Assembly (NCBI RefSeq): GCF_033097365.1
Contig: NZ_AP028461.1
Coordinates: forward strand, 2,666,001-2,730,000
DNA: 64,000 nt
Direction: 5' to 3'
Source: Actinoplanes sichuanensis
GTDB lineage: Bacteria; Actinomycetota; Actinomycetes; Mycobacteriales; Micromonosporaceae
The number at the start of each line of letters is the position of its first letter. The stretch's first letter is position 1. The translations under genes and the position numbers were made by a program. This document shows, in pieces, positions 2,116-57,967 of the stretch. The notes beneath the pieces were generated by a model. That model did no database searches, was not told the DNA's origin, and saw nothing but the letters and a program-made list of their open reading frames with translations.

Positions 2116-3603
2116 ATGACGATCGAGGTGGATCTGGCGGCCCCGTTACGCATCGCGGACCTGCGCGCCGCCCGCGAGCCGATCTCCGTCCGGGTCGGCC
2201 CGGCGGTCCGCGAGCGGGTGACGGCCGGGCGTGTCTTCCTGGCCAAGGTGCTCGGCGACGACCGGGCGGTCTACGGCGCGACCACCGGGTTCGGGGCGCT
2301 GGTGGGCTACGCGGGCCGCGCCGACCAGCGCGATCAGGCCGACAACACGCTCGCCCATCTGGGTGCCGGTCAGGGGCCGGATCTCGACCCCGATCTGGCC
2401 CGGGCCACCATGCTGGTCCGTGCGCACTCGCTGGCCCGGGGCGACTCGGGCGTGTCGCCGCACGTCGTCGACGCGCTCGCGGCCGCGCTGGGCACCACGT
2501 TCGCGCCGGCGATGCCACGCCTGGGGTCGGTCGGCGCGAGCGGCGATCTCATTCCGCTGGGAGCCACGGCGCAGGCCCTGCGCGGGCGGGGCGACGCCTA
2601 CCTGCACGGCCGGCGGCTCCCCGCCGCGCAAGCCCTCCAACAGGCCGGGCTCGAACCACTGCCGCTGGACGGCCGGGACGCGCTCGCCCTGGTCAACGGC
2701 ACCTCACTGACCACCGCCGCGGCCGCGCTCGCCCTCGATCGGATCCGCGCCTCGCACCGGGTGATCCAGTTGCTCACGTGTGTGCTGGCCGACCTGCTCG
2801 GCTGTGACCCGCAGTTCCTCGACGCGGGGTTGTTCGACGCGTACGGCCACGCCGGGGCGATCACGGTGGCGGCCCGGATGCGCGTGACACTCGACGGGAC
2901 GACGCCGTCCGGGACGCGGCCGTTGCAGGAGCCGTACTCGATCCGCTGTACACCCCAGCTGCTCGGCGCGGCCGAGGACGCGCTGCGCTACGTCGACGGT
3001 GTGGTCACCGCCGACCTGGCCGGTGTCAGCGACAACCCGCTGTTCTTCCCGGCCGCCGACAAGGTGGTGCACGGCGGCAACTTCTTCGGGCAGCCGGCCG
3101 CCTTCGCGTCGGACGTCCTCACCATGGTCCTGGCGCAGCTCGGCAACCTGGCCGAACGCCAGCTGGACCTGCTCGTCGACCCGGTCCGCAACGGCGGACT
3201 CCCGCCGATGCTGGCCGCCGGGCCCGGCCGGCAGCACGGTCTGCAGGGGGTTCAGCTGGCGTCGACCGCTCTGATCGCGGAGATCCGCCGCGACGCGATG
3301 CCGGCGAGCATCCAATCCCTGCCGACAAACCTTCACAATCAAGACATCATTCCGTTGGGTACGCAGTCCGCGCTCCGTGCCTTGGATCAGTCCCGGCTGC
3401 TCGCGCTGATCACCGGCTCGCTGGCCCTCGGTCTGCGCCAGGCCGTCCACGTCGGAGCGCGTATCCCCACCGCGTCCGCGTGCGCTCGGGTGGTGGTGGC
3501 GCTCGCCGAGGCGATCCCGCCGATCGACCCGGACCGCCCGCTGGAGGCCGAGGTCCGGTTGGCCGCCGAGATCGCCGAATCGCTGGCCGAGCCGTGCCCG
3601 TAA
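2116..3603 (+). CDS. MIO-type aromatic amino acid ammonia-lyase, probably tyrosine ammonia-lyase
   Basis: A 495-residue member of the HAL/PAL/TAL superfamily, which eliminates ammonia from aromatic amino acids. The Ala-Ser-Gly triad that cyclises to the MIO electrophile is at residues 141-143 (GSVGASGDLIPL). The catalytic Tyr loop reads YGATTGFG, and NGTS, YSIRCTPQ and HGGNFFG follow as in bacterial members. The substrate-selectivity position reads AHL (His81-Leu82), which aligns with the His-Leu pair that selects tyrosine in Rhodobacter TAL, whereas histidine lyases have Ser-His there. The expected product is 4-coumarate. A tyrosine 2,3-aminomutase, which shares the fold, cannot be excluded. 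The neighbouring CoA ligase and monooxygenase suggest a hydroxycinnamoyl branch of a specialised pathway. Confidence 0.85.
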   Translation: MTIEVDLAAPLRIADLRAAREPISVRVGPAVRERVTAGRVFLAKVLGDDRAVYGATTGFGALVGYAGRADQRDQADNTLAHLGAGQGPDLDPDLARATMLVRAHSLARGDSGVSPHVVDALAAALGTTFAPAMPRLGSVGASGDLIPLGATAQALRGRGDAYLHGRRLPAAQALQQAGLEPLPLDGRDALALVNGTSLTTAAAALALDRIRASHRVIQLLTCVLADLLGCDPQFLDAGLFDAYGHAGAITVAARMRVTLDGTTPSGTRPLQEPYSIRCTPQLLGAAEDALRYVDGVVTADLAGVSDNPLFFPAADKVVHGGNFFGQPAAFASDVLTMVLAQLGNLAERQLDLLVDPVRNGGLPPMLAAGPGRQHGLQGVQLASTALIAEIRRDAMPASIQSLPTNLHNQDIIPLGTQSALRALDQSRLLALITGSLALGLRQAVHVGARIPTASACARVVVALAEAIPPIDPDRPLEAEVRLAAEIAESLAEPCP

Positions 3604-3672
3604 ACCTACCGGCATGCTGGTCAGCCGCCATGACCGGCGACGGGTGACCTTCCGGGAGCCGTTCGAGCCGAG

Positions 3673-3678
3673 TAGCTT
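3673..3678 (+). promoter_or_regulatory. Possible -10 element of a leaderless promoter
   Basis: TAGCTT fits the actinobacterial TAnnnT -10 consensus and ends six bases before the GTG start at 3685, the spacing expected for a leaderless transcript. No ribosome binding site is visible before that GTG, which agrees. No clear -35 is seen. Confidence 0.4.
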
Positions 3679-3684
3679 CGATAC

Positions 3685-4572
3685 GTGGTGAAGCGCGATC
3701 CGGGTCCCATCCGTGCCGCGCGTATGCTGCGCGCCGACCTGCGACGTGCCCGTGAAGCATCCGGGATCACCCAGCAGGAGGTCGCCGAGCGGATGTCGTG
3801 GTCGCTGTCCAAAGTCACTCGGATCGAGAGCGGCGACGTCGGCATCACCTCCGTCGACCTGCGCGCCCTCGCCCGGCTTCTCGGGATGGGCGAGACGGCG
3901 ATTCGGGAGGTGGTGCGCCGGAACGAGGCCTCGCGTGCCCGCGGCTGGTGGTACGACTATCGGACGGTCATGTCGTCGACCTATGTCGATCTCGTCGGCA
4001 TGGAGTCCGATGCGGAGCAGTTGCGGGAGTACGCGGTGAGCGTGGTTCCGGGTCTGCTCCAGACGCCCGCCTATGCCACGTCGGTGGTCAGCAGTGTTGG
4101 TGACCACTTCTCACCGGAGGATCCCGAGAAGTTCGAATCGGACCTTCGGGTGGAAATTCGGCTGCGACGCCAGCAGAACGTCCTCGACGGATCCGATCCA
4201 CCTGAACTGATGGTCATCCTTGACGAGTCCGTCCTGTACCGCGCGGTCGGTGACTTCGAGACGATGGCGGGACAGGTTCGGCGTCTGGCGGAGCTGGCCA
4301 GACGACCACAGGTGCGGATCGGGATACTTCCGTTCGAGCGCCGGTGTCACTGCCCGCACAACTACCTGATCGTGGATCTCGACCTGGTCTACGCCGAGAT
4401 GATGACCGACGAGATCCGGTTCGACGACCCGTCCCACGTGGAGGTCTACCGGAGACTCTTCGACTCGGCCTGGGCCGAGGTGCTCGACGCGGATCGGACC
4501 GGACAGTTGCTTCAGCGGGTCGCCGGCGACTACGAGAGCGGCCGGTGGCCGCGCCCGTGGTTATGGGAGTGA
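3685..4572 (+). CDS. XRE-family helix-turn-helix regulator with DUF5753 domain
   Basis: A 295-residue protein of the scr1 family common in filamentous actinomycetes. Residues about 15-70 form a Cro/CI-type helix-turn-helix (GITQQEVAERMSWSLSKVTRIESG), and the rest matches the DUF5753 region with its typical segments (YAVSVVPGLLQTPAYA, RIGILPF, WAEVLD). Such proteins regulate development or antibiotic production and usually sit next to a short DUF397 gene; no DUF397 partner is seen here. The GTG start (or the next codon, also GTG) lacks a Shine-Dalgarno sequence and is probably leaderless. The 3' end faces the NACHT gene tail-to-tail with about 65 bp between the annotated stops. Confidence 0.9.
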   Translation: MVKRDPGPIRAARMLRADLRRAREASGITQQEVAERMSWSLSKVTRIESGDVGITSVDLRALARLLGMGETAIREVVRRNEASRARGWWYDYRTVMSSTYVDLVGMESDAEQLREYAVSVVPGLLQTPAYATSVVSSVGDHFSPEDPEKFESDLRVEIRLRRQQNVLDGSDPPELMVILDESVLYRAVGDFETMAGQVRRLAELARRPQVRIGILPFERRCHCPHNYLIVDLDLVYAEMMTDEIRFDDPSHVEVYRRLFDSAWAEVLDADRTGQLLQRVAGDYESGRWPRPWLWE

Positions 4573-4668
4573 TCCGAGCGCCAGTTCCAGGCCGCTGACG
4601 TTGATCTGCTTGCGGTCGCGGACGCTGGTGGAGAGGGTCAGCCGCCCGATCCGCAGGTGTTCTCCAAG
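4561..4668 (-). other. Coding-looking extension of the NACHT gene in a shifted frame
   Basis: Just before the annotated stop of the NACHT gene (4638), a different reverse-strand frame stays open to a TAA at 4561-4563 and reads EHLRIGRLTLSTSVRDRKQ followed by INVSGLELALGS. Nearly every codon in it ends in G or C, as in real genes of this window. A single-base frameshift around 4660-4668 would join it to the NACHT protein and add about 33 residues. The extension would overlap the last 12 bases of the XRE gene. It may be a natural frameshift, a sequencing error, or chance. Confidence 0.4.
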
Positions 4669-7163
4669 CTCTCCCACGCTTCCTCGTCCAACCCGGCCTG
4701 CCACAGCCGTACGGTCGAGCGCCACCACCGGCGGACGTCGGCATCCGGTGGAGCGAGCGACTCCAGCACGACCATGTCGTCGGCCAGCAGCACTCCGAGG
4801 ATCGTCAGGTTCGCGGTGTAGGCGGCGGCCCCGTCGACCACGTCCGGCGGTACCGGTTCGTAAACGAGGCAGCCGAAGGCCCTGGTACGGGCCTGTGCAA
4901 GCAGCGCCCGGGTGGCCCCGCGCATCGCCGGGAGACGGGACACCGGGTGGTGCGTGACGAGGCCACGGGCGAACTCCACGATCGGCCGGCGGAGGCTCAG
5001 CGGCTGGTAGGAGAGCAGCGCCCGCAGCATGCTGTCGTCCGGCGCCTCATGAGCGGACGGGTCCGACCGGTACAGCTCGCGCCGCTGGGCGTACCCGTCG
5101 AGCAGGATGAGAGCCCGCTCCGCGATGAGGTATTCGCTGAAGGTGGCGTGCAGGAACTCGTAGGTGCGACGAGCGTGTTCGGTGTGCTCGTCGGCCCGGG
5201 CGACGTGTACGAAGAAGAAGCCGGCCACGGTCTGCCGGGCCTGTTCGGCCGGCCGGTCGAAGCCCTGTGCCAGGTCGCGTCTCCGGCCCAGGAACACCTC
5301 GAGGTCCCGCTCCAGGTCCTGGTCGCCGACGTACTGGCGGCGCCGGTTGAACATGGCGAACGCGGCGATGCTCAGCCGCCACCGGGCCTCGCCGAGGAGT
5401 GGCGGGAGCTGCTCCTCGCCGGGCGGCCGTCCGGGTTTGTCGGCGACCTGTCGGTGGATGAAGTTGTCGAGGAGCATCCGATAGAGCGTCGCCGTGGAGA
5501 TGCCGTCGGCGTCGATTCGAGCCGCCGAGGGGTCCGCGTGGTAAATGCTCAACAGCGTGAGTAGCAGAGGCTGCCGCGCCAGGCCACCGTGCCGCAGGAT
5601 CTCGGTGGTGGTGAGTTTGCGGAACCGTGGTGTTCGGGCGTTCGCACGGTTCCACGCAGTCAGCCACTGCCCGATCTGCTGGTCGGAGAACTCCTCCAGT
5701 TTGATCACCAGCGAGCCGTCCGGCACCCGTGCGCGGTCCAGCACGATCGTCCGCGAAGTCACGATGACCGCGACCGATCGGCCCAGCGCCAGTTCCTCGG
5801 CCTGGAATCGCGCGATCTCGGTGAGATAACTCGACTGCGTGGTCCCGGTCGCCTGGATGAGCTCGTCGAAGCCGTCGAGGATCACCACCCGGGTCACGTC
5901 GGCGCACTCCTGGGCCAGCGCACCCCAGGAGATCTGCTCGTGGAGGACATCGTGCAGCGCGGTCTCGGCCTGAACCAGCAAGCGGTCGTCGGCGTTGACC
6001 CGCCGCAGCTGCACCGGGACCACGGCGAACCGCTCGCTCGGCAGCCGAGCCGCCAGAATCTCGCTGAGCAGGGACTTCCCGGCCCCCGGATGGCCCAGCA
6101 CGACCAGCGGCAGCCGGGCCGAGTCGGGGTGGGCGAGGCATGCGGCAAGGAAGACATCGAGCCCGTCCCGGATCGGGCGGTCGGTCCACCACGGCTCCTG
6201 GGACATGGCCGACGCCGACGGGCCGTGCACCACCGCGTACCGGAAACTCGGCGTCACGAAGCCCTCGGCGACCGACGGCAGTGACACACCACCCGGTGGC
6301 TTCGACGAACGCAGGAGCGGCTGGTCGAGTACGGCGGAAGCGGTCCGGGCCAGAGCGGCCCGGATGGTGCCGCGCCGGGGCCGGTCGATGGTGGCGCCGG
6401 CGACGAGGATGTCGTGCAGTTGGCCCATCGCCTCGGACGTACGATCGAGCACCTCGGACAGTCGTCGGTTGACCCGGCGCAGCTCGTCGCGGGTGGCGGC
6501 GTGCTCGCCGTACGAGGCCCAGACGAAGAACTCCGGCACGTCCGAGCTCAGCCGTAGGTAGAGGTCGCGGTAGAGCTCACGCCATCGGGCGACGGTCCGG
6601 GGCACGACGTCACCTGCCCCGGTGTGCCAGGCGCGGAGCCCTTCGAAGAACGCGAGGGCACCGTCGGTCAGCCCGGCCACCTGCGGAGCGAGCCGGTCGT
6701 TCAGGTTCTCCTCGAAACCGGCGGCCGGTGACGGGAGGGGTAGGTCGGCACCCGCGAGCTGATCGACCCAGGCAGACTGCGAGATCATCTCACCGCGGGC
6801 GGTCGCGAGCCGAAGCTTCTCGGCGTCGGTCACCTCCAGCGCGTCGTAGAGCGGCCCGATCGTCTGCCGTAACGCGTCGAAGAGGGCGGCCACCACGATC
6901 GTGGTGTGAGCGGCGGCGATCAGTTCGTGCCGGCCGCGCCCATGTGTGCCTCGGACCCGTTCCAGCGCGGGGGACAACAGATCCCTGACCAGACGGCCGG
7001 CCTCCTGCTTGCCGTCGACCAGACCGAGCGCCGGAGGATGGACGACGGCACCCAGCAGGATCCCCGCCCCGGCGACCCGGTCGAGCACCTCGACGATCAC
7101 CGGCGAGTGGCGGCCGAGGAGGGCGAGGGCACCAGGGTAGGTCAACGGCGTGGCTCGGACCAT
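4638..7163 (-). CDS. NACHT-domain STAND NTPase (putative conflict/defence protein)
   Basis: The open frame reaches further upstream, but the coding part starts at the ATG at 7163 (MVRATPLTYPGALALLG), giving 841 residues. Residues 1 to about 230 are a helical region resembling the N-terminal helical domains that precede NACHT in actinobacterial proteins. The ATPase has a Walker A loop GHPGAGKS near residues 357-364 and a Walker B of NACHT type (VVILDGFDEL) near 425. The C-terminal 350 residues are helical and show no repeats or named effector domain. STAND ATPases of this type act as oligomerising switches, and bacterial NACHT proteins have been linked to phage defence. It diverges from a membrane protein and a WD40 gene that may be its partners. 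The extreme C-terminus may be frameshifted. Confidence 0.85.
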   Translation of the reverse strand: MVRATPLTYPGALALLGRHSPVIVEVLDRVAGAGILLGAVVHPPALGLVDGKQEAGRLVRDLLSPALERVRGTHGRGRHELIAAAHTTIVVAALFDALRQTIGPLYDALEVTDAEKLRLATARGEMISQSAWVDQLAGADLPLPSPAAGFEENLNDRLAPQVAGLTDGALAFFEGLRAWHTGAGDVVPRTVARWRELYRDLYLRLSSDVPEFFVWASYGEHAATRDELRRVNRRLSEVLDRTSEAMGQLHDILVAGATIDRPRRGTIRAALARTASAVLDQPLLRSSKPPGGVSLPSVAEGFVTPSFRYAVVHGPSASAMSQEPWWTDRPIRDGLDVFLAACLAHPDSARLPLVVLGHPGAGKSLLSEILAARLPSERFAVVPVQLRRVNADDRLLVQAETALHDVLHEQISWGALAQECADVTRVVILDGFDELIQATGTTQSSYLTEIARFQAEELALGRSVAVIVTSRTIVLDRARVPDGSLVIKLEEFSDQQIGQWLTAWNRANARTPRFRKLTTTEILRHGGLARQPLLLTLLSIYHADPSAARIDADGISTATLYRMLLDNFIHRQVADKPGRPPGEEQLPPLLGEARWRLSIAAFAMFNRRRQYVGDQDLERDLEVFLGRRRDLAQGFDRPAEQARQTVAGFFFVHVARADEHTEHARRTYEFLHATFSEYLIAERALILLDGYAQRRELYRSDPSAHEAPDDSMLRALLSYQPLSLRRPIVEFARGLVTHHPVSRLPAMRGATRALLAQARTRAFGCLVYEPVPPDVVDGAAAYTANLTILGVLLADDMVVLESLAPPDADVRRWWRSTVRLWQAGLDEEAWESLENTCGSGG

Positions 7164-7191
7164 GCACCCGACCGTACGGCACGGCCGGCCC

Positions 7192-7292
7192 GGGAATCCG
7201 GGTCGAGTGGTATCGGCAGAGGGAATCCAGGGCATCGATAGAGGTACAGCCCGGCCCCGAGACGGTGTCCGGTCTACCCCGCAGGCGGGTAG
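7192..7292. promoter_or_regulatory. Intergenic control region with direct and inverted repeats
   Basis: The 138 bp between the NACHT start (7163) and the membrane-protein gene (7302) contain two copies of GGGAATCC (7192-7199 and 7221-7228, 29 bp apart) and a 6-bp inverted repeat CTACCC/GGGTAG (7274-7279 and 7287-7292). They may bind a regulator shared by both directions. No clean promoter motif was found. Confidence 0.3.
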
Positions 7293-7301
7293 GAACCGCA
7301 G

Positions 7302-7760
7302 GTGAAGCCGGGTTGCGGCAGGTCGCGGCCGGCTGCTGCCCGGGCGGCGGTGACGGGCCATGATGCGGCGGTGTCCGGTAGACGATGGGTGATCACTGCG
7401 GCGGTGTTGTTCGTGGCGGCCCTGAGCGGCTGGGCGGTGTTCCTGTCCGGTCGAGGGCCGGCGAACGCCGACCGGTGGGTGACGGTCGTCGGATTCTTCG
7501 GCACCACGGTGCTCGCAGCGGGATCGTTCGCCGCGGGCTGGTCGGCGTCGCGGTCGCCCGCATCGGCACGGCAGGCGGCGGCCGCGGATCGGGTGGCCGC
7601 TAGCGGTGCGGCGGACGCCTCCGGTGGCGGGCGGGCCAACACCGGGATCGAGGGGTACGGCGACGGCCGTACCGCTCAGGTGAATCGGTCCGGAGATGCG
7701 ACCGCGAGGGGACCGGGATCGGTGGCCAACACGGGCGTCTCCCGAACGCCCCGGACGTGA
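7302..7760 (+). CDS. Small two-helix membrane protein with a C-terminal Gly/Asn motif
   Basis: A 152-residue protein starting at GTG 7302, which has AGGA seven bases upstream. Two hydrophobic segments (about residues 29-49 and 58-79) predict a membrane hairpin. The last 45 residues are low in hydrophobics and carry ANTGI (112-116) and then SGDATARGPGSVANTGV (130-146). A related motif occurs at the N-terminus of the next protein. I do not recognise a family. The stop overlaps the start of the WD40 gene by four bases, so the pair is translationally coupled. It could be a membrane anchor or effector that recruits the WD40 protein through the shared motif; this is inference. Confidence 0.75.
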   Translation: MKPGCGRSRPAAARAAVTGHDAAVSGRRWVITAAVLFVAALSGWAVFLSGRGPANADRWVTVVGFFGTTVLAAGSFAAGWSASRSPASARQAAAADRVAASGAADASGGGRANTGIEGYGDGRTAQVNRSGDATARGPGSVANTGVSRTPRT

Positions 7761-8995
7761 CCGTCGACGAGACGCCGCCACCCGGGTCGGCCGTGTCCGA
7801 ATCCGGCGATGGCCGGGCCGAGCAGGGCGCGATCGCCAACACCGGGGTCATCCACGGCGATGTCCGATCCGAATTCCACGTGCACCATCACCATCAGCGA
7901 CCGAGATTGTCGCGGCGCCTGATGATGCGGACGGTCGCGGTGATCGGTCTCGGGGCTGCCGGCGCGGCTGCCGCCTGGCGGTACGAGCCCGAGGTCACCC
8001 GCCGGAGCACGCCGGAGCCGTCGGAGTCACCCGAGCCGGTGATGTTCGGGCCGGACGCCTCGTACCACGAGAGGGGCCGGCGGCTCAGCCCGAAGGGCGA
8101 GACGGTCTGGTCGGTCGCCCTCGGCATGCTGCGGGACGAGCCGTTGGCCGTGGTCGGGCGGGAGAACGGCCGGATTCAACTGTGGGATCCGGTCACCGGG
8201 AAAGCCCGCAGCGATCCCCTTCCCGGGCACCGGTCGCAGGTGTACGGCCTGGCCCTGCACGGCACGATGGCCGTGTCCGCGAGCACCGACGGCACCCTGC
8301 GGATCTGGGACCTGACGGCCGATCCGCCGCGGAGCACCCCCACGACCGACGGGATCGCCGGCGGCATCAACGGGGTCGCGCTGACCACGGTCGAGGGCCG
8401 GACCGTCGCCGTGTCCGCCTGTCACGACCGGACCGTGCGGGTCTGGGATCCCACGAACCCCAGACTCAGTGGAAAGGTCATGGGCTCGAAGCTCGGCGCG
8501 CCGGTCCGGAGCATCGCGGTCGGCGTCGTCGACGGGCGGACCGTCGCGGTCACCGGCTGCGAGGACGGCGACGTCTCGCTCTGGGACGTGCAGGGCGAGC
8601 GCCTCGTGGGCAGACTCGGTGCGCACCAGAGGGAAGTGGGGGCACTGGCGGTCGGCGCCGTGGGAGGGAAGCCGGTCGCCGTCTCCGGCAGCGAGGACGG
8701 CGTGGTGCGCAGATGGGATCTGAGCACCGCGCGGCCCGCGGGGGAGACGCTCATGGACCTTCCGAAAGCCGTCAAGTCCATGGCGATCGGTGAGCTGGCC
8801 GGGCGGACCGTCGCCGTGTCCGGCTGCGACGACAGTGGTGTCCGCCTCTGGGATCTCGGTGCCGGGCAGCCGTACGGCAGTGGTCTGACCGGCCCGGAGA
8901 AGACCGCCGAAGCCATCGCGTTCGGTTACTTCGGCGGTCGGCCGACCGTCGTCTCCGGTCATTGGGACGGCACCATCTGGGCCTGGACCCTGTGA
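7757..8995 (+). CDS. Membrane-anchored seven-bladed WD40 protein
   Basis: A 412-residue protein with a GTG start inside the stop of the upstream gene. Residues 16-36 carry a Gly/Asn motif (SGDGRAEQGAIANTGVIHGD) like the one at the end of the upstream protein. It is followed by a His cluster (HVHHHH, 41-46), an arginine-rich stretch and one transmembrane segment (about 58-74). Residues about 100-412 contain seven WD40 repeats, each with an aliphatic Ala-Val core and a terminal WD or WT pair, which is exactly one closed propeller. The topology would put the motif inside and the propeller outside, or the reverse. WD40 propellers act as sensors or scaffolds in STAND-based systems, which fits the divergent NACHT gene. 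Confidence 0.85.
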   Translation: MTVDETPPPGSAVSESGDGRAEQGAIANTGVIHGDVRSEFHVHHHHQRPRLSRRLMMRTVAVIGLGAAGAAAAWRYEPEVTRRSTPEPSESPEPVMFGPDASYHERGRRLSPKGETVWSVALGMLRDEPLAVVGRENGRIQLWDPVTGKARSDPLPGHRSQVYGLALHGTMAVSASTDGTLRIWDLTADPPRSTPTTDGIAGGINGVALTTVEGRTVAVSACHDRTVRVWDPTNPRLSGKVMGSKLGAPVRSIAVGVVDGRTVAVTGCEDGDVSLWDVQGERLVGRLGAHQREVGALAVGAVGGKPVAVSGSEDGVVRRWDLSTARPAGETLMDLPKAVKSMAIGELAGRTVAVSGCDDSGVRLWDLGAGQPYGSGLTGPEKTAEAIAFGYFGGRPTVVSGHWDGTIWAWTL

Positions 8996-26813: not shown

Positions 26814-29800
26814 ATGTGGATTCCCCTGACCGTGGTCGCCGGCGACCGGCGGGCCGACCTGCACGTCCGCTGCACACCGACGGCCACTGTCGACGATCTG
26901 CGTGCGGCTCTGGCCGAGCGGCTGCAACTCGCCGACCCCGGCGAGCTCAGCGTCGACGGCAGGCGTCCGGCAGCCGGTGACCGGCTCGCCGCGGCCGGTG
27001 TACGGGCCGGCGCCACCGTGTGCCTCGGCCCCGCCCGTCAGCTCGCGCGGGCGCCGGAGCCACGGCGGGTGCTCGAAGGGGTCGCGGGCCCCGACGGCGG
27101 GCTGATCATCGCCCTCCCGGAGACCGGAACGATCTCGATCGGCCGGGATGCGTCGAACACCGTGGTGCTCGCCGACACCGCGGTCAGCCGCCGCCACGCC
27201 ATTGTCGCCTGCACACCGGGCGAGGTCGTGGTGCGCGACGCCGGGTCGGCCAACGGCACCGAGGTGAACGGTACGGTGCTGATCGACGCGCAGCCGCTCA
27301 CCGCGGGCGCGGTGGTCCAGGTCGGCGACAACCAGCTGCGTTTCCGGGCCGGGCCGGACGCTGCGCCCGCGGCGAAGCTGGTGCGGCAACCGGATGGCAG
27401 TGACCGCCTCGATCGGCCGCAACGCTTCACCGAGCCGCCGGTCGTGCGGGAGGTGCGGCTGCCCCGCAAACCGCCCGATCGCAGCCGCAGTTCAGCCGGC
27501 ATCGGCTGGGCGGCCCTGTCCAGTCTGGTGCTGGGCGTGGTCGCGTACTTCGTGTTCCACAGCTTCACCTTCCTGCTGCTCGCCGCGGCCAGCACGGCGA
27601 CGCTGCTGATCTCGGCGCTGGTGTCCTATGTGAGGGCCCGTAGGGAGCAGGCCCGGGCCGCCGGCCGGCACGCGGCGGAACACGCCGCCGCTGAGGCCGA
27701 GATCGAGGCGCTCGTGGTGGCCGAGCGGACGGCCCGCCGCCGGGCGACGCCCGGCCCGGCCGACGTGGTGGCCATCGCCCGGCGGCCGGGGCCGACGCTC
27801 TGGGAACGCCGGCCCACTCACCCCGACTTCCTCGAGGTGCGGATCGGCATCGCCGCGCTGCCGTCGAGGGTGACCGTCCGCGATCCAGACGGCGGCACCA
27901 CCGTGCCGGACGTGCGTGACGTGCCGCTGACCGTGTCACTGACCGTGGCCGGGACGGTCGGGCTGGCCGGCCCGTTCCCGGCGGCGCGGGCGGTGGCCCG
28001 CTGGATCGTGCTGCAGGCGGTGGTCCAGAGCGGGCCGGCTGATCTGCGGGTGGTGGTGCTCACCGCCCCCGGCGACCGGGCCGCGCAGGCCGGTTGGGAC
28101 TGGGTGCGCTGGCTACCGCACGCCCGGCCGGAGAACGGGCCGCTCGCGTCGGTCGGCGCCGACGCCCTGTCGTTGCAGGGCCGGATCGATGAGCTCGCCG
28201 CGCTGGTGGCGCAGCGGCGTCAGGCCGGCGACGGCGGTACGGCGGCGCCGCGCCGGCTGCTGGTGGTCGACGGACTGTCCGCCAACGATGTGCCCGGGCT
28301 GGCCGAGTTGTTGCAGGCCGGTCCGGACGCGGGAATCAGTGTGGTGGCGGTCGGTGAGTTGCCGTATCGATGTCCGGTGACGGTCACCTTCCAGGACAGT
28401 GCCAACGTCACCGTGCAGCGGGCCGGTGAGTCGCCGCGGCCCGACGTGGTCGCCGACCAGATCGGCGTCGAACCGGCCGAGACCGCGGCGCGGGGTATCG
28501 CCGCGTTGCGTGACCCGCAGTCGGCCGGTGGCATGAGTGGTCTGCCCGAGCGGGTCGCGCTGCTCGACGATCACGACGGCGCCGGCGACCCGGCCGCGAT
28601 CGCCCGGCGATGGCGGGGCGTTCCGCGCCGTACCGACATCGTGGTGGGTCGGGCCGCAGACGGCCCACTCGCCATCGACCTCGCCGCCAACGGGCCGCAC
28701 GCGATCGTGGCCGGGGCCACCGGCTGGGGCAAGTCGGCGTTCCTGCAGACGCTGGTCGCCGGGTTGGCGCTGGCCAACCGGCCGGACGAACTCGGCTTCC
28801 TGCTCATCGACTTCAAGGGCGGGGCGGCGTTTGCGCCGTTTGTGACTCTGCCGCACGTGATGGGCATGATCACCAACCTGGACGGGCGGGCGGTGATGCG
28901 TGCGCTCGACTCGCTGGCCGGCGAGATCCTGCGCCGGCAGGTCTACCTGCGGGAGGCCGGTGTCGAGAAGCTGGCCGAGTATCAGCGGCTGGCCGCCGCC
29001 GGCGCGCTCCCCGACGGCTGCCCGCCGCGGCTGCCGCGGATGTGCATCGTGGTCGACGAGTTCGCCATCCTGCGCGAGAAACTGTCCGACGACATCCTGC
29101 GGCGATTGGTGCACGTCGCCACCCAGGGACGGTCGATCGGGCTGCATCTGATCCTGGGTACGCAGACGCCGCGGGGCGCGGTGCCGCCGGAGATCGCCGA
29201 GAACGCCAAACTGCGCATCGCGTTGCACCTGAGCGCCGACCACTCGCAGGACGTCGTGGGTACGCCGGACGCGCGGCTGATCACCGTGCCGGGCCGCGGT
29301 CTGGTGCGGCGTGGCCAGGAGGCGGACGTCGTGGTGTTCCAGTCCGCCTACGTGGGCGGCCGGACCCGCCGGGTCGGTGGGCCGCCGGTGCGGGTGCTGC
29401 GCGCCGCTTTCGACGAGCTCGGGCGTGAGCCGGCGGGGGAGGAGGTGGCCGAGGTGCGCGACGCCGACATCCTGGTGCGGGCGGTCGCGGAGGCGGCGGC
29501 AGCAGCGGGCATCGGCCGGCCGGAGCTGCCGTGGCTGCCTGAGCTGCCCGCCCGGCTGGACGCGGCGGGCCTGTCGAGTTCGTCGGCGCCGGCTCTGCCG
29601 TACGGCCGGGAGGATCGCCCGGAGGAGCGGCGGCAGCCGGTCGCCGAATGGGATCTCGACGCGGGCACGCATCTGCTGGCCGCCGGGCGGCCCCGGTCGG
29701 GCCGCAGCACACTGCTCCGGACCCTCGCCGCGGCGATCGCGAAGCAGCCCGCCGACCGGGTTCACCTCTATGTGATGGACTGCGGTGGCGCGCTCGCCGA

Positions 29801-31220
29801 CCTGCGTGATCTTCCGCAGTGCGGCGCCTACCTGGATCAGAGCGAACTGGCTCGGGGCGCCCGTCTGCTGGACCGTCTCGAAGCGCTGGTGTCGGGCGGT
29901 CCGGCGGCGGCCCGGACGGTGCTGTTCATCGACGACTGGGACAGCTGGGTGCAGACGTTCGGTGAGGTCGACGGCGGGGCGTTGCACGAGCAGTTGATGC
30001 GTGTCGTACGAAAGGGGCCGGCGGCCGGGCTGCACGTGGCGGTCACCGGCGGCAGCACGCTGTTCACGTCGGCGCGGGCTCGTGCGCTCAACGAGGCGAG
30101 TCAGGATCGGCTGGCGCTGGCGTTCGACGCCGAGGACTACGGGTGGATCGGGGTGCCGGCCACCGCCCGGCCGGCGGAGCCGCGGCCCGGTCTGGCCGTC
30201 CGGCTCGGCGCGCCGCACCGGGCGGTGCAGGTGGCCGTCTTGTCGCAGCCACTGCGGGCGCCGGCCCGAGGTCCGGAGAAGGGCGGGCCCTGGCCGGTCG
30301 ACGCGTTGCCGTCGCGGGTCGGCTACCCGGAGGCCGCGGTGTTGCCGCGAGGTACCGGTCCCGCGTGGATCGGGCTCGGCGTGGGCGGAGACCGGTTGCA
30401 GTGGCTGGGTGCCGATGCCGTTCGGGAGGGGCCGGCCGTGTTCGTCGCCGGTGAGCGCCACAGCGGCCGGAGCACCACGCTGCTGGCGATCGCGCTGGAC
30501 GCCCTGGACCGTGGGGTGCCGGTGGTCGCGGTCGCGCCGTCGCGGGGTTCGGTGTTGCACGAGCTGACCGGGGTGGCCGGGGTCGCCGCGGTGCTGGGTG
30601 CCCGGCAGCCGACCGACCGGCAGATCGGGCTGGCGATCGCCGCCGCCGGGGCGGGGCCGTGCCTGGTGGTGATCGACGACGCCGAACAGTTGCAGAACTC
30701 CGACGGCGGTCGGGCGCTGCACCGGATGATGCTGGCGGAGGACGCCGGCCGTGCCTTCGTGGTGGCCGCCGACCTGGCGGTGCTCAGTGCGCCGGCGCCG
30801 AACTCGCTGCTCGGTGAGGCCGGTCGCGGCGGTACCGGGCTGGTGCTGACGCCGAGGTCGGCGCGGGTGCACCTGTTCGGGGTGCTCACCCGGCTGCCCG
30901 AGGCGTACGTCAGCAGCGAGCCGCCGGGGCGTGCGGTGCTGCTGCGCCGATCGGCGGCGGCGCCGGTGCAGGTGCCGTACGCGTCGAGTGCCGATGTGCG
31001 CGGGCGGGCTCGCCGGTCGGGGTCGGTGGCGGCCCTGCTGCAGGTGACCGACGTGCTGGCGGGGCCCGCGCCGACGCCGGCCGGGCGGCTGTGTGAGCTG
31101 ATCGACCGGCTGCGGGCTGCGGGTTTCGACGAGCTCGCCCCGGATGCGGCGCAGCGGGCGGTCGCGTGGGCGCCGGGGTGGGACGGAACGCCGGAGGATC
31201 TGGTCGCGGCGGCCCGGTAG
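26814..31220 (+). CDS. eccC: Type VII secretion ATPase EccC with an N-terminal FHA domain
   Basis: A 1468-residue FtsK/SpoIIIE-type motor. The N-terminal 185 residues contain a ubiquitin-like start and an FHA domain (ISIGRDASNTVVLAD, SRRHA, GSANGTEVNG), which binds phosphothreonine. Two transmembrane helices follow (about 228-270). ATPase domain 1 has a full Walker A (GATGWGKS, about 634-641) and Walker B (LGFLLIDFKGG). Domains 2 and 3 have GRPRSGRS (about 958) and GERHSGRS (about 1212), where the P-loop Lys is Arg, so only domain 1 looks catalytically standard. FHA modules are typical of EssC-like forms. No eccB, eccD, eccE or mycosin gene is in the window. It converges with a WXG100 operon. 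Confidence 0.9.
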   Translation: MWIPLTVVAGDRRADLHVRCTPTATVDDLRAALAERLQLADPGELSVDGRRPAAGDRLAAAGVRAGATVCLGPARQLARAPEPRRVLEGVAGPDGGLIIALPETGTISIGRDASNTVVLADTAVSRRHAIVACTPGEVVVRDAGSANGTEVNGTVLIDAQPLTAGAVVQVGDNQLRFRAGPDAAPAAKLVRQPDGSDRLDRPQRFTEPPVVREVRLPRKPPDRSRSSAGIGWAALSSLVLGVVAYFVFHSFTFLLLAAASTATLLISALVSYVRARREQARAAGRHAAEHAAAEAEIEALVVAERTARRRATPGPADVVAIARRPGPTLWERRPTHPDFLEVRIGIAALPSRVTVRDPDGGTTVPDVRDVPLTVSLTVAGTVGLAGPFPAARAVARWIVLQAVVQSGPADLRVVVLTAPGDRAAQAGWDWVRWLPHARPENGPLASVGADALSLQGRIDELAALVAQRRQAGDGGTAAPRRLLVVDGLSANDVPGLAELLQAGPDAGISVVAVGELPYRCPVTVTFQDSANVTVQRAGESPRPDVVADQIGVEPAETAARGIAALRDPQSAGGMSGLPERVALLDDHDGAGDPAAIARRWRGVPRRTDIVVGRAADGPLAIDLAANGPHAIVAGATGWGKSAFLQTLVAGLALANRPDELGFLLIDFKGGAAFAPFVTLPHVMGMITNLDGRAVMRALDSLAGEILRRQVYLREAGVEKLAEYQRLAAAGALPDGCPPRLPRMCIVVDEFAILREKLSDDILRRLVHVATQGRSIGLHLILGTQTPRGAVPPEIAENAKLRIALHLSADHSQDVVGTPDARLITVPGRGLVRRGQEADVVVFQSAYVGGRTRRVGGPPVRVLRAAFDELGREPAGEEVAEVRDADILVRAVAEAAAAAGIGRPELPWLPELPARLDAAGLSSSSAPALPYGREDRPEERRQPVAEWDLDAGTHLLAAGRPRSGRSTLLRTLAAAIAKQPADRVHLYVMDCGGALADLRDLPQCGAYLDQSELARGARLLDRLEALVSGGPAAARTVLFIDDWDSWVQTFGEVDGGALHEQLMRVVRKGPAAGLHVAVTGGSTLFTSARARALNEASQDRLALAFDAEDYGWIGVPATARPAEPRPGLAVRLGAPHRAVQVAVLSQPLRAPARGPEKGGPWPVDALPSRVGYPEAAVLPRGTGPAWIGLGVGGDRLQWLGADAVREGPAVFVAGERHSGRSTTLLAIALDALDRGVPVVAVAPSRGSVLHELTGVAGVAAVLGARQPTDRQIGLAIAAAGAGPCLVVIDDAEQLQNSDGGRALHRMMLAEDAGRAFVVAADLAVLSAPAPNSLLGEAGRGGTGLVLTPRSARVHLFGVLTRLPEAYVSSEPPGRAVLLRRSAAAPVQVPYASSADVRGRARRSGSVAALLQVTDVLAGPAPTPAGRLCELIDRLRAAGFDELAPDAAQRAVAWAPGWDGTPEDLVAAAR

Positions 31221-31226
31221 CCGATC

Positions 31227-31799
31227 TCAGCCGAAGACGGCGTTTTCGCCGGGTGGGGGCGTGATGTGCAGGGTGGCGGCGACGCCGTCGAACACGTCGA
31301 GCAGTTGCATGGCGTGTGTCATCGCCGGGGTCTGGAAGGACAACAGCCAGGGGCGTGCGTGGGCCACGGCGTATTGGGCCTTGAGTTCCCAGAGGTCACC
31401 GAGCGGGCTGGCAGCGATGCCGCGGAAGAGTCGTCGGACGGTGACGCCGGCCGGCAGGTCCAGGCGTGCCGACGGCCCCTCGTCGATGCCGTCGGTCGGT
31501 GTGGTGTCTCCGGTGTCGTCCATGATCACCATCAGGGACGCGGACACCACCTGCCCGGTCTCGTCGTCGGCGGCCGCGCCGCCGGCCATCAGGATCGTGC
31601 CGGCCGACGCACCGACTCGGGCCAGCTGGATCAGCTCGTCGGCGATGCCGGGGAACGGGGCCGGCCGGTTGTCGGCGATGCCGTGGGCGCGGGCGGTGAG
31701 GTCCGGCTCGTCGGTCGGCAGAGACCACCAGCCCGGGGGCAGCGCGATGTCGAGCACGGTGCCGTCGTCGGCTCGAACCGTCGTCTGCTGCCAGGTCAT
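31227..31799 (-). CDS. Hypothetical protein of the WXG100 operon
   Basis: A 190-residue protein starting at ATG 31799, which overlaps the stop of the preceding gene (ATGA). It has no signal peptide or transmembrane helix and shows segments such as LDIALPPGWWSLPTDEP and DLPAGVTVRRLFRGIA, with a probable mixed alpha/beta fold. I do not recognise a family. Being last in a type VII operon and coupled to the 380-residue protein, it could be that protein's chaperone or immunity partner; this is a guess from position. Confidence 0.7.
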   Translation of the reverse strand: MTWQQTTVRADDGTVLDIALPPGWWSLPTDEPDLTARAHGIADNRPAPFPGIADELIQLARVGASAGTILMAGGAAADDETGQVVSASLMVIMDDTGDTTPTDGIDEGPSARLDLPAGVTVRRLFRGIAASPLGDLWELKAQYAVAHARPWLLSFQTPAMTHAMQLLDVFDGVAATLHITPPPGENAVFG

Positions 31800-32938
31800 C
31801 GCTTGTCGCCGCCGATCCACCCTTGAACGTTCTTGCGTACCTCATTCGCCTCGTGGGTCTGCACGAGGGCGTCACCCACCACCCAGCGCCGGTTGTCGGG
31901 TGGCAGCCACCGTTGCATCGACGGCAGCGGCGCATGCTGTCTCGCCTCCTGCACCACTGCGGTCATCTGCTGCTCGTTGCGAAAGGCGGTGACGGGGTGC
32001 AGGATCTCGCGGCGTGCGGCGGCAGTGAAACCGACCGCCAGTTCATCGGCTGCCTCGGCGGCTCCGGTCGCGAACCTCGCCCCGCCCGCGGTCTCAGCGG
32101 CGGTACGGAGTTGGTGTTCGGCTTTGGCGGCCTTGGCCATCGGTCTGAACCCGGCGCCGAGACCACCCGTGGCCACATCGACGGTGTCGCCGCCGACGGT
32201 GCTCCAGCTCGCGTCGCCGTCGGCCACCAGTTTCAGGTCGACTCCGAGTTTGGCCACATCGACCGCCAGCAGCAGTCCGCGACCGGCCGCCGCCGCCGGC
32301 AGGGCGAGCGGTGCGAGCGGTGGAAACGCGGAGGCCACCGTAAGGACCAGGACGGCGGTGCCGAGCACGTCGCTGACGTCGTGCAGGACGTCGCCGATGT
32401 TCTGCCAACGGGAGTGCCTGAACTTCTCGACGATGTCGCTGGCGTGGCCGAGGGCCACGGCACAGGTCTTCGCCGCCGCCGTCGCCTGTGCCGCTACGTC
32501 GTCGTGCCGGCGCTGCAGGGCGGCGAGCCCGGGCACGTTCGGCGTCGCGGGGGAGGCGAACACGGTCAGCGCGTTGTTCGTCTCGGCCGATCGTTGCAGG
32601 TCGTTGGCTTCGCGGGCGATCTGCGCGGCGGTGGCCTGCAGTGCCCCGAGCGTCTGCAGCCAGCGCGTGAGATCCTCGGCCGCGCCGGTGTACGCCGACT
32701 CCGCGGCCTGCAGTCGGCGTACGATCTCGTCCCGCCGCCGGCCGCAGGCGTCGGCCGCCGGGCCGGTCCACAGTGTGACGTCGGCACCGATCCGGCCCAG
32801 CAGCACCACCGCGTCACCGGCTGTTCGGGCGGCGTCGCGGAGCCGGGCGATCACCGCGGCGATCACCTCGGAATCGCCCGGCGCCGGGTCACCGCGGCGC
32901 AGTAGCGGCGCAGTCCGTGGGAACGAACCGGGCAGCAT
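31796..32938 (-). CDS. Putative type VII secretion substrate with central hydrophobic region
   Basis: The start is ATG 32938, which shares one base with the stop of the upstream gene, giving 380 residues (the frame runs further upstream without coding character). The first 190 residues are helical with a WTG turn (TLWTGPAADAC) like WXG100/LXG secretion modules. A hydrophobic stretch (about 190-250; AVLVLTVASAFPPLAPLALP) follows, then a 130-residue C-terminal region with no recognisable catalytic motif. This layout fits a large type VII cargo. Alternatively it is a structural ESX-associated protein. Confidence 0.65.
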   Translation of the reverse strand: MLPGSFPRTAPLLRRGDPAPGDSEVIAAVIARLRDAARTAGDAVVLLGRIGADVTLWTGPAADACGRRRDEIVRRLQAAESAYTGAAEDLTRWLQTLGALQATAAQIAREANDLQRSAETNNALTVFASPATPNVPGLAALQRRHDDVAAQATAAAKTCAVALGHASDIVEKFRHSRWQNIGDVLHDVSDVLGTAVLVLTVASAFPPLAPLALPAAAAGRGLLLAVDVAKLGVDLKLVADGDASWSTVGGDTVDVATGGLGAGFRPMAKAAKAEHQLRTAAETAGGARFATGAAEAADELAVGFTAAARREILHPVTAFRNEQQMTAVVQEARQHAPLPSMQRWLPPDNRRWVVGDALVQTHEANEVRKNVQGWIGGDKR

Positions 32939-33225
32939 CACGGACCGCTCCGGAAATAGCGCACCATGGATTGTTCCAAACCGTCGTAGATCTGCGCCGC
33001 CTGACGCATCTTCTGGCTCAGCGCCGTTGTCTCCTCGTCGATATCGGAGATCATGTCGCTGCCGTTGCGAGCCAATTCGTCGAGTGCCTGATCGACAATT
33101 CGCGGACACGCACCGGAGGGAATCCCTCGGAGCGCGGATTCGATTTCGGCCAGCGACGCGGCGGTCCGGCTGATCTGATCGGCCGACGACCGCAGGCCGT
33201 CGGTGTCGAAGCTGCCACGCACCAT
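32938..33225 (-). CDS. Small ESX-like helical protein (type VII target candidate)
   Basis: A 95-residue protein from ATG 33225 (the frame is open further upstream, but the WXG100 gene lies there). It is predicted to form a helical hairpin, with SADQISRTAASLAEIESALRG then DISDIDEETTALSQKMRQAAQIYDG-type helices, and lacks the Trp-X-Gly turn. This is the pattern of DUF2580/EspC-like partners of WXG100 proteins, with which it would form a heterodimer. It sits 8 bp after the WXG100 gene. Confidence 0.7.
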   Translation of the reverse strand: MVRGSFDTDGLRSSADQISRTAASLAEIESALRGIPSGACPRIVDQALDELARNGSDMISDIDEETTALSQKMRQAAQIYDGLEQSMVRYFRSGP

Positions 33226-33233
33226 CGCGGTCC

Positions 33234-33524
33234 TCAGCCGCCGAAGGCGCGGGCGATCGAACTCTCGTTCGTCTCGTAGGCCGAACTGGCCTGGTTCAGC
33301 ACCAGGCCCATCTGCTGCAGGCTCTCCAGCAGCGGCTGGACGGCCCGTTCCCACTGCTCACGAGTGCTCTGGAAAGCGGCCGCACCGGGGCCGGTCCACA
33401 CTGCGGAGAGCTGTCCGGCAGCCGAGCGCAACGCGGCGATGGCCTGCTCCAGTTCGTCCGACCGCTGCCGGGTCAGGTTGGCGTGATTGGCGATCTCCGC
33501 ACTGTCGAACGTGCCCTGGGCCAT
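33234..33524 (-). CDS. WXG100 family protein (ESAT-6/CFP-10-like)
   Basis: A 96-residue protein starting at ATG 33524. It has the family size and the central Trp-X-Gly turn (LSAVWTGPGAAAF, about residues 41-53) between two amphipathic helices, ending in ARAFGG. Such proteins are exported as folded dimers by type VII systems via an EccC ATPase. It heads a four-gene leftward operon and is divergent from a Ser/Thr kinase gene. Confidence 0.9.
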   Translation of the reverse strand: MAQGTFDSAEIANHANLTRQRSDELEQAIAALRSAAGQLSAVWTGPGAAAFQSTREQWERAVQPLLESLQQMGLVLNQASSAYETNESSIARAFGG

Positions 33525-56200: not shown

Positions 56201-56634
56201 CCCTGGCGATGCTGTGGGACATCACCGACCGAGCCCGTCCGCTCCGGCTCACCACGCTGACCAGCCACAGCGGCAACGTGGCCACGATGGCCTTCAGCCC
56301 CGACGGGCGCACCCTGGCAACCGGGGACTCGGACTCCGAATTGTTCCTGTGGGACACCGCCAACCCGGCCGGACCGATCCGGCTCGTCTCGTTGCGTGGC
56401 CTCGGTGGCCAGGCGCGGGCGGTGATGTTCCAGCGCGACGGGCGCACCCTGGCCGTCGCCGCCCAGACCACGAGCCGAGGCGCGACCGTCAAGCTGTGGG
56501 ACTACTCGAAGCTGAACAAGCTCCGCGCTGACCCGGCCGCCTACGCCTGCGCCATCACCGGCCGCGGCCTCGGTGCCGACGAATGGGCCCGCTACATTCC
56601 GGAGGTTCCGTACCGGCGTACCTGCACCGGCTGA
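53293..56634 (+). CDS. TIR / transmembrane / coiled-coil / double WD40 protein
   Basis: The GTG at 53293 has AGGGGA six bases upstream and is preferred, giving 1113 residues. Residues 1 to about 130 are a TIR domain (FNGFISYSHAADG; LASPEAAQSRWVNREIEHWM), with Glu84 at the position of the catalytic NADase Glu of SARM1-like TIRs. A transmembrane helix (about 187-208) follows, then a Gln/Glu/Ala-rich coiled coil (about 208-360). Residues about 415-1085 hold 14 WD40 repeats (FSPDGRTLA...LWDVTDR type), enough for two seven-bladed propellers, with an acidic Pro-rich insert (about 626-672). A signalling or defence protein anchored in the membrane is likely. Confidence 0.85.
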   Translation: MTFNGFISYSHAADGRLAPAVQRGLHRLAKPWHRRRALWIFRDQTGLAVTPGLWSSIQTALDGSEYFVLLASPEAAQSRWVNREIEHWMDTKSANRILPVVTDGEWAWDQDRHDFTEDSTAVPDALRGVFAEEPLFLDLRWARGSEHLSLQHSRFRDAIAQLAAPMHGVSKDELEGEDVRHHRRARRLGSGALAMLVVLSLLAVLTSVSSVRNAERATAAAAEALRQQQVAEVQRGSAERFEQEATRQQRVAKEQQALAAAAATEAQRSEQSAQEKQWQADQATAEAQRQQRIADQAADRTRQLQRLSEEAGERTRQLEQEAQQLEAEARRLTKIAEEKQREAKEATAEAARQQAKADLQQRIAISRRLTTQGKATIGSDPKTALMLSAAAQEIVPDAATHSEVTGVVTATSYAGTISDVVKAVYAPDGVLLALGPDGKVSLWNTTDRTNPTRITTLSEPVAAHTSLALSPDGRTLAVVNREHSATLWDLTDRPHPVRLATADPDGGVQTVAFSGDGITIATGNGRGITTLWDVTDRSQPRELATMGEFAPYTADGFAFSSDGTILVVDKIRFVAVYDLSDRTDPVHFRSMPGFEFTSMAPDPTGRTLATGDYDGFLHLYHMRRTATAQVESAQPAQPEQQDPEDQEEQEDPEDEVTPPPPLPPDDPDSEPYARMGGLTASVEAIAYSADGSHLAAGDAQGTAMVWNMTYAEGPGAVVTVRANGAINSVSLAPDAETLVTIDSSETAILWNVKPVGTPDPLAALPVQGGQIKAAAIRPDGRSLVAAGPDGTARSWDVTDPARPVQGADLSIRSAAVRAVAFSPDGRTAAAIGSQDGQLTLTDVTRPDQPVALPGRTEAMYGTNPMVFSPDGRTLAVVADSTRLLLWNVADRTRPTLLATLSGMTFGTAVAFSPDGHTLATSGLHRGLTLWDVTDRATPVQLGTLAGHNGQVTAMAFSPDGHTVASGGVDTLAMLWDITDRARPLRLTTLTSHSGNVATMAFSPDGRTLATGDSDSELFLWDTANPAGPIRLVSLRGLGGQARAVMFQRDGRTLAVAAQTTSRGATVKLWDYSKLNKLRADPAAYACAITGRGLGADEWARYIPEVPYRRTCTG

Positions 56635-57943: not shown

Positions 57944-57967
57944 GAGACAAAACGTACCATTTGGTCG

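Follow-up and report, generated by a model that had tools for sequence, protein, structure and literature searches.

Two plus-strand genes of the soil actinobacterium Actinoplanes sichuanensis, whose predicted products are a small protein of the membrane and a propeller sensor anchored in it, on balance appear to form a self-contained effector/receptor pair that would signal through a shared, probably amyloid-forming, BASS-like motif. BASS bacterial amyloid signalling pairs were reportedly described by Dyrka et al. 2020. The window, i.e., the whole stretch of DNA analysed (64,000 nucleotides of contig NZ_AP028461.1), supplies the coordinates given below. The pair itself, its recurrence, the motif matching between types, the fusions, the missing P-loop and the conserved twin-arginine (RR) anchor are read from the predicted proteins. 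As judged from them, the pair is a member of a Micromonosporaceae family in which a two-transmembrane (2TM) protein with a doubled tail motif is followed by a gene opening with that motif.

The effector and receptor genes

The candidate effector gene (7371..7760, plus strand) encodes a protein of 129 aa, with two membrane helices and a tail carrying two motif copies. An alternative GTG start at 7302 (plus strand) would give 152 aa; the start at 7371 is favoured by the relatives P0098-P0101 and the record P0097. Residues 2-60 (7374..7550, plus strand) were predicted by the structure model and hydropathy to form a two-helix hydrophobic hairpin, the helices being modelled at residues 2-27 and 30-60 (effector model: pLDDT 67.9, pTM 0.31). 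When Pfam, PADLOC and NCBIfam were searched up to E 1, the effector and its hairpin obtained no match. SLATT and other known effector families were considered for the window effector and rejected, no Pfam family having matched at E values up to 1.

The first tail copy, R1 (RVAASGAADASGGGRANTGIEGYGD; 7590..7664, plus strand; motif model E 2.1e-6), has modelled strands at effector residues 81-84 and 88-90, and the second, R2 (QVNRSGDATARGPGSVANTGVSRTP; 7677..7751, plus strand; E 1.9e-10), at residues 110-113 and 118-120. Each repeat was modelled as strand-turn-strand, with block pLDDT values of 78 and 81. R2 was the best-conserved part of the effector, with a mean pairwise identity of 80.8% among 16 effectors compared to 42.1% for the 2TM part.

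The effector and receptor genes share a 4-base start/stop overlap, GTGA (7757..7760, plus strand), as the sequence-only reading had stated, and the identical overlap was found in 14 of the 23 related loci having a downstream ORF, with the starts set by a fixed rule. The candidate receptor gene (7757..8995, plus strand) encodes 412 aa. Its motif (AVSESGDGRAEQGAIANTGVIHGDV; 7790..7864, plus strand; motif model E 1.2e-10) is followed by a His-rich RSEFHVHHHH stretch, and the protein continues with a twin-arginine (SRRLMMR) hydrophobic anchor segment (7910..7978, plus strand) and a WD40 beta-propeller at about residues 107-412 (8075..8992, plus strand; Pfam WD40 E 8.4e-25). No Walker A pattern was found in the window receptor. 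The propeller was modelled with pLDDT blocks of 87-98; its top Foldseek match was the designed propeller Tako8 (E 4.2e-19), followed by propellers of LIS1 and Gbeta (E about 1e-17 to 1e-16), and in PADLOC the receptor had a single, generic match of the propeller type (PDLC02919, E 4.1e-11). The doubling of the motif in the effector tail and the receptor's own hydrophobic anchor with its twin arginine are features beyond the earlier reading.

In WD40-family proteins, RR immediately preceded the hydrophobic segment in 37 of the 37 that were testable (7 of 44 were untestable by script). The WD40 family matches, by sequence, the pattern of a Tat substrate, in which a twin arginine stands ahead of a segment of moderate hydrophobicity. 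The anchor hydrophobicity was only moderate, 1.58 for the window receptor and 1.43 for that of locus L110, values not far above the maximum for P-loop receptors (1.36).

That the C-terminus of the first product and the N-terminus of the second have a motif in common, as had been claimed, was borne out by local alignment: the score was 50, compared to 26.0 on average for shuffled sequences (sd 5.0), and was reached by 1 of 5000 shuffles; the highest score among 41 other called window genes was 43. The 25-aa motif model found three places at E <= 0.01 in the 12.1 Mb genome, all in the window pair (127 of the 180 first-look candidates scored). Since these three matches had gone into the model, the information lies in the lack of any further place above the threshold. 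At most 127, 24 and 21 candidates per genome were scored in the genus, family and phylum searches, respectively. A scan of the genome contigs with the single pattern GPGSVANTG gave four loci, and receptor residues 1-60 had P0003 as their sole match in a large protein set. The RHIM/PP core is of the Q-containing (I/V)Q(I/V)G type. Membership in this group was rejected for the window motif, AIANTGVIHG, in which no such core was seen by reading; the motif of the L144 pair is nearer to the RHIM-type core.

Recurrence, motif matching and fusions

Among 354 family genomes, the motif search gave at least 62 matches in at least 30 genomes, which correspond to at least 33 loci. Of 33 loci, 27 were paired (15 with motif matches in two ORFs, and 12 more on reading), one had a remnant, four had no visible partner and one was unread; the motif is therefore largely not widespread without pairing, an outcome on which the sequence-only reading had made itself depend. 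Partners at 24 of the 33 loci carried a P-loop (Walker A pattern), and Pfam named NB-ARC in three of the six Walker A receptors scanned (L065, L066 and L144). Residues 4-46 of the window receptor were 56% identical (E 4e-10) to the N-terminus of the NB-ARC/TPR receptor of L065 in genome G010, and the N-terminal module is common to the window receptor and NB-ARC receptors. Five of the 33 receptors (window, L110, L111, L112 and L188) had no Walker A pattern and carried a hydrophobic segment directly after the motif. This segment was clear in L111, L112 and L188 (2.41-2.81), and L111 and L112 each have, in their outer parts, four cysteines at corresponding positions. The WD40 version was rare, with full-length matches in 2 of the 67 genus genomes. 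At L066 (genome G023), a window-type tail sits on a soluble helical domain that seems to resemble BELL; neither this BELL-like protein nor the window effector gave a BELL profile match.

Tails and receptor N-termini were matched. The mean cognate score was 59.1, compared to 45.8 (sd 1.9) for re-dealt partners, and was reached in 0 of 20,000 permutations, which ignore relatedness. The test comprised 23 of 28 loci, those having a downstream ORF. L114 and L142, whose downstream ORFs are probably spurious, were kept, which lowered the cognate mean; L067, L117, L140, L141 and L148 had no receptor ORF by the rule and were left out. On later reading, L140 was a fusion, L141 had its motif match in a divergent ORF and L067 held a motif-bearing remnant. 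The window tail's own partner ranked 13th of 23, and the matching thus holds between motif types and not within the window type. Moreover, 2TM effectors with other motifs go with receptors of matching motif, as at L144 (GAQVNLGGTNTQHNSF and GLQINVGGTNTQHNTF), L113 and L115.

Three natural effector-receptor fusions were found. P0005 joins a 2TM part, 53% identical to the window effector (alignment A5), to one motif copy, an RR-anchor and a propeller. In L140, a 2TM part (E 2.5e-34) is fused to a receptor that shares 69% identity with the separately encoded receptor of L188. The third is a paralogue in genome G000, whose 2TM part was recognised by eye and hydropathy only, the effector query giving no match to L063 at E 1e-6. 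The motif was degraded in two of the three (L140 and the G000 paralogue). Tethering by fusion seems to make the motif dispensable, and a mere docking role would explain this likewise.

Proposed mechanism, alternatives and the NACHT neighbour

In the best reading, which we hold with somewhat more than even confidence, a transmembrane propeller would take the place of the NLR in the pair. The folded propeller would be exported by the Tat route and remain anchored, leaving the N-terminal motif module of about 50 residues in the cytoplasm. A multivalent outside ligand may then cluster the receptors, and the clustered motifs would nucleate a cross-beta fold, which would template both of the copies that the two-helix effector carries in its cytosolic tail. 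The assembled hairpins could permeabilise or depolarise the membrane, by which the cell would be killed or arrested. A broader version, to which we give slightly less than an even chance, is that NTPase-free bacterial transmembrane receptors pass an outside signal by nucleating a prion-like amyloid, each combining an exported sensor, one helix and a cytosolic motif with a two-helix effector. The motif module would then have moved between NLRs and surface receptors, which would make amyloid signalling a general plug and no NLR feature. The sensors in question are the WD40 propeller of the window, a small four-cysteine domain (L111, L112) and another short domain (L188).

The motif may instead be a plain homotypic docking peptide of non-amyloid nature that keeps both proteins in a stable membrane complex, with the 2TM protein under direct control of the propeller and without templating. 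Matched motifs and fusions require binding only, and a degraded motif in two of three fusions is what one would expect if it served for tethering alone; however, NLRs with the effector in one chain would likewise lose the motif. The module, moreover, has the placement of known amyloid motifs, which lie at the C-terminus of effectors and the N-terminus of NLRs encoded by overlapping genes. It occurs twice in the effector, as it does in HET-S, and was modelled as strand-turn-strand with the block confidence given above; we regard docking as rather unlikely. Similarly doubtful is a cytosolic propeller, with the hydrophobic stretch peripheral or uninserted and an internal cue sensed in the manner of an NLR, an arrangement compatible with the amyloid reading and overlapping it in probability. 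The moderate hydrophobicity of the anchor and the short broken helices modelled there with low confidence would suit it. Nevertheless, RR stands ahead of the segment in all 37 testable relatives, and the clear hydrophobic segments of L111, L112 and L188 lie at the corresponding position. Furthermore, relatives that are named as kinases (e.g., P0045 and P0050) and an HTH-like start in relatives (HTH_31 E 0.028 in one of two tested) point to a cytosolic module at the N-terminus.

The sequence-only reading had also given the neighbouring NACHT protein a part in the system, as a sensor for the motif-linked pair or as its trigger. The gene is present as claimed (4638..7163, minus strand; 841 aa). 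Its longest ORF opens at 7781, within the pair, and the domain-supported start is 7163, counted from which the NNH7 match (Pfam E 8.2e-57, 193 bits) begins at residue 5. The NACHT domain scored 24.7 bits, slightly below the Pfam cut-off of 26.7, and the translation holds a readable P-loop, GHPGAGKS, and VVILDGFDEL; the gene fits, by its NNH7 and NACHT domains, an NNH-NACHT bacterial NLR. PADLOC gave no match for the NACHT protein and HTH matches for the DUF5753 regulator beside it (3685-4572). The NACHT gene and the pair are divergent and adjacent, with 138 or 207 bases between the starts. However, 2TM or WD40 relatives adjoined only one of the 33 NACHT loci, the window itself (30 distinct places, 27 with only 1.5 kb flanks), and NACHT relatives were found in none of the 32 2TM/motif-family loci apart from the window (30 distinct; tblastn E <= 1e-6). 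The nearest NACHT relative (68%, G016) has the DUF5753 regulator and no pair in the 16 kb read, the A. philippinensis pair has no NACHT gene, and no motif copy was found in the NACHT protein by reading or by the motif model. The absence of a conserved neighbourhood refutes the three-gene arrangement as it had been put forward; the partnership was rejected on synteny, and we consider it highly improbable. The NACHT gene is probably a bystander, a separate locus outside the system. What stands of the earlier interpretation is a BASS-like motif linking anchor and propeller, in line with the matching, the fusions and the mostly paired motif.

Whether signalling amyloids exist without NLRs is, in the accessible part of PMC7889193, a published open question, which the pair makes testable. 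The locus and its relatives offer small expressible candidates, namely an effector of 129 aa and P-loop-free receptors of 260-412 aa. If the preferred transmembrane reading is true, bacteria can connect sensing at their surface with prion-like signalling. No paper listed by searches of an open-access collection, from which most subscription papers and preprints are absent, described such receptors in its title or abstract.

Comparison with known systems

Actinobacterial WD40 proteins P0007-P0042 have a propeller related to that of the window (alignment identities of 45-53% for most) and, where testable, the RR-anchor, whereas their N-terminal module differs from the window motif and is HTH-like at best. 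SLATT proteins are 2TM pore-forming effectors (PMC7159879, in excerpt) and are, like the window effector, two-helix membrane proteins in bacterial conflict loci. The window protein differs in having no Pfam match up to E 1, and the excerpted text of PMC7159879 mentions no motif tail for SLATT.

HET-S of Podospora, as excerpted from PMC12881547, has two pseudo-repeats in the tail of a membrane-active effector and a receptor motif. The window pair is alike in its doubled tail motif, its receptor motif and its predicted membrane effector, a likeness by description and not by sequence, but the fungal receptor is an NLR.

BASS pairs of filamentous actinobacteria carry the motif at the effector C-terminus and the receptor N-terminus, encoded by adjacent or overlapping genes (PMC7889193, PMC8086366 and PMC9815663, each in part). 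According to the accessible text of PMC9815663, the BASS screen looked for neighbouring Bell and NLR genes in which a motif recurs; confined to such neighbours, it would let the window pair escape. The BASS receptor in these sources is an NLR (STAND NTPase), whereas in the window pair its place is taken by a WD40 propeller protein that lacks a P-loop and is predicted to be anchored in the membrane, and the window effector is modelled as a hairpin of two helices, about 60 residues long. Nevertheless, the window pair shares with BASS, so far as these excerpts describe it, the placement of the motif in adjacent genes, C-terminal in the effector and N-terminal in the receptor, and most relatives of the window pair have P-loop partners, as in BASS.

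The effector and receptor candidates

The genes described in the sequence-only reading were borne out on ORF reading. A NACHT gene, also identified by its domains, occupies 7163-4638 of the minus strand, and the 129-aa effector candidate gene (7371-7760, +) and the 412-aa receptor candidate gene (7757-8995, +) overlap by four bases. The window covers positions 2,666,001 to 2,730,000 of its own genome, which is a single contig of 12.1 Mb, and the nearest named relatives of both candidates are Actinoplanes proteins.

In the effector candidate, two hydrophobic helices precede a tail of approximately 70 residues, in which the motif model placed the motif twice, as copies R1 (7590-7664, +) and R2 (7677-7751, +). 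Over 16 effector relatives, the named ones being from Actinoplanes, Micromonospora, Verrucosispora, Frankia, and Pseudofrankia, the mean identity was 80.8% for R2 and 70.7% for R1, compared with 42.1% for the two-transmembrane (2TM) part and 27.0% for the linker; it is thus the tail that is constrained. The AlphaFold model, which was of modest confidence (pLDDT 67.9, pTM 0.31), displayed two helices and a strand-turn-strand for each repeat. At another locus (L066, 6069-6539, +), the same tail motif was carried by a soluble helical domain, presumably BELL-like, in place of the 2TM hairpin.

The receptor candidate carries the motif at residues 12-36; behind it lie a stretch rich in His, an anchor with a twin arginine, and the WD40 propeller. 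The propeller block was modelled with a pLDDT of 87-98 and the first 100 residues with 26-46. Residues 4-46 were 56% identical (E 4e-10) to the N-terminal end of an NB-ARC/TPR receptor of genome G010 (domains by Pfam), so the window receptor has its N-terminal module in common with an NLR-type receptor. Among four motif-bearing receptors (P0002, P0003, P0004, and that of the A. philippinensis pair, L110), the identity was 77.3% in the motif region (14-46), 66.1% in the propeller, and 23.3% in the linker (76-97). Furthermore, a scripted test found the twin arginine directly ahead of a hydrophobic segment in all 37 testable WD40-family proteins, the other 7 of the 44 being outside the reach of the script (4 of these too short). 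An xEFHxHHHH-type stretch was observed after the motif in the receptor N-termini of the window, L065, L109, and L135, which include WD40 and NB-ARC types, and none was seen in the effector tails.

Pairing of the motif and types of receptor

Among the candidates scored, the 25-aa motif model gave 32 matches in 13 of the 67 genus genomes at E ≤ 0.01; R1, R2, and the receptor motif were all found at one locus in seven genus genomes, all of which had supplied segments to the model. Scoring in the 354 family genomes gave 62 matches, spread over 30 genomes and 33 loci, and 15 of these loci had matches in two ORFs. Twelve of the other 18 were paired on reading, the partner motif being under the threshold (L138, L139, L146, L182, L188, L191, L192, L193, L195, L196, L197, and L199; the last eight belong to nine single-ORF loci read in one round). 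L067 held a motif-bearing remnant with the long ORF absent, no partner was seen on reading L183, L185, L186, and L198, and G728:C96 was outside the loci read. The sequence-only reading had named a motif widespread in unrelated proteins, with no pairing, as evidence against its proposal; for the most part this was not so, since the motif was paired at 27 of the 33 family loci. Among the candidates scored in 396 phylum genomes, only two had the motif at E ≤ 0.001, the window's own being one.

The 2TM/motif profile, with the own genome counted, matched 43/67 genus genomes at E ≤ 0.001, many partially, and 28/300 family genomes at E ≤ 1e-12. Twenty-eight loci, the window among them, were read; a fixed rule assigned a downstream ORF to 23, and 14 of the 23 had the four-base overlap of the window. 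The mean motif score between cognate tail and N-terminus was 59.1, compared to 45.8 (sd 1.9) for re-dealt partners, and was never reached in 20,000 re-deals, a control that ignores relatedness. The window tail placed its own partner no higher than 13th of 23, which would follow if one motif type is common to many pairs. The match was kept in pairs with other motifs (L144, L113, and L115). At L144 (5571-7982, with an upstream 2TM gene), the same 2TM fold accompanies an NB-ARC-TPR receptor and a quite different common motif (VNLGGTNTQHN type), which looks nearer to the PP/RHIM class. A second 2TM/receptor pair is present in the own genome (L064, G000:C1:4584000-4596000; genes 7055-7402 and 2967-7040, minus strand); its motif differs from that of the window yet matches internally (RRTGRAEARDGGRAVSGE / RDTGDAQATNGGIAVTGK), and its 1357-aa receptor has a P-loop. 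At L141 (genome G093, around 4689-5219), a motif-bearing effector was seen with a motif match in a long opposite-strand ORF, in a divergent and non-overlapping arrangement.

After 10 further loci were added, a receptor ORF was found in 33 of 38. The Walker A pattern was present in 24 receptors, including L194, where the printed match was spurious but APAWAGKS comes after it, and absent from nine; the search of the window receptor found none. Five of the nine (window, L110, L111, L112, and L188) had a hydrophobic segment right after the motif, with a hydrophobicity of 1.43-2.81 versus 0.59-1.36 in the 24 Walker A receptors; L114, L142, L198, and L199 were not placed in this group. The receptors of L111 (6571-7353, -), L112 (7657-8445, +), and L188 are short and P-loop-free, with the motif, one hydrophobic segment, and a small domain. 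In L111 and L112, the outer part of the receptor has four cysteines each, with positions that match between the two, and no Pfam family was assigned to either receptor.

The NACHT gene and other genes of the window

The NACHT gene had been proposed as the third member of the system. NACHT relatives were common (36/60 genomes searched, including the own genome with 6 matches), and the neighbourhood with the pair was not conserved: the pair lay beside NACHT at one of 33 NACHT loci (30 distinct), the window itself, and no NACHT match at E ≤ 1e-6 was found in 32 2TM/motif-family loci (30 distinct). At 27 of the 30 NACHT places the search took in flanks of 1.5 kb; each locus of the 2TM/motif set spanned 6-15 kb. 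In genome G016, a 68% NACHT relative still lies beside a DUF5753 regulator (47%), and no TM or WD40 match was present nearby in the 16 kb read.

Elsewhere in the window, a 1113-aa protein (53293-56634, +) has WD40 repeats (Pfam) and, by eye, a TIR-like N-terminus. A type VII secretion cluster-like region (26814-33524; large FtsK/EssC-like and small WXG100-like ORFs) and an IS200/IS605-type element (56711-58437; TnpB-like and TnpA-like ORFs) were also recognized by eye.

Fusions and the putative signalling mode

The 2TM and WD40 genes were adjacent in A. philippinensis on reading of the locus, and both proteins were also listed, as co-presence rather than gene adjacency, for A. subglobosus and for Actinoplanes sp. 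CA-252034; the full-length WD40 version was rare (2/67 genus genomes). In P0005 of Actinoplanes sp. NPDC026670 (467 aa), the 2TM part and a single copy of the motif are fused to the RR-anchor and propeller; this protein aligned with the window effector at 53% identity. In a 462-aa minus-strand ORF at L140 (genome G315), a 2TM part whose motifs are degraded is fused to a membrane segment and to an outer domain 69% identical to the free-standing L188 receptor. A diverged paralogue in the own genome, 58% identical to the receptor, is a single ORF that holds the RR-anchor and the propeller together with two hydrophobic segments and a motif that has degraded; its 2TM part was assigned by eye and gave no match from the effector query. 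Since the effector and receptor parts are found as separate or fused genes, there is good evidence that they work together. The degraded motif in two of the three fusions indicates that it serves to connect the two proteins. This decay does not by itself distinguish plain docking from amyloid signalling, being compatible with both.

Amyloid-type signalling, as proposed for BASS pairs, would be the most economical reading, with a propeller at the cell surface taking the place of the NLR. This orientation is suggested by the twin arginines and by relatives named as kinases or beginning with an HTH-like module, on the assumption that the kinases have the same anchor; the HTH match was weak (E 0.028, one of two tested). 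From the two-helix fold and precedent, we infer that the effector could have a membrane-damaging output. NLR-independent signalling amyloids are named as an open question in PMC7889193. Unlike the receptors of BASS pairs, the window receptor is not an NLR.
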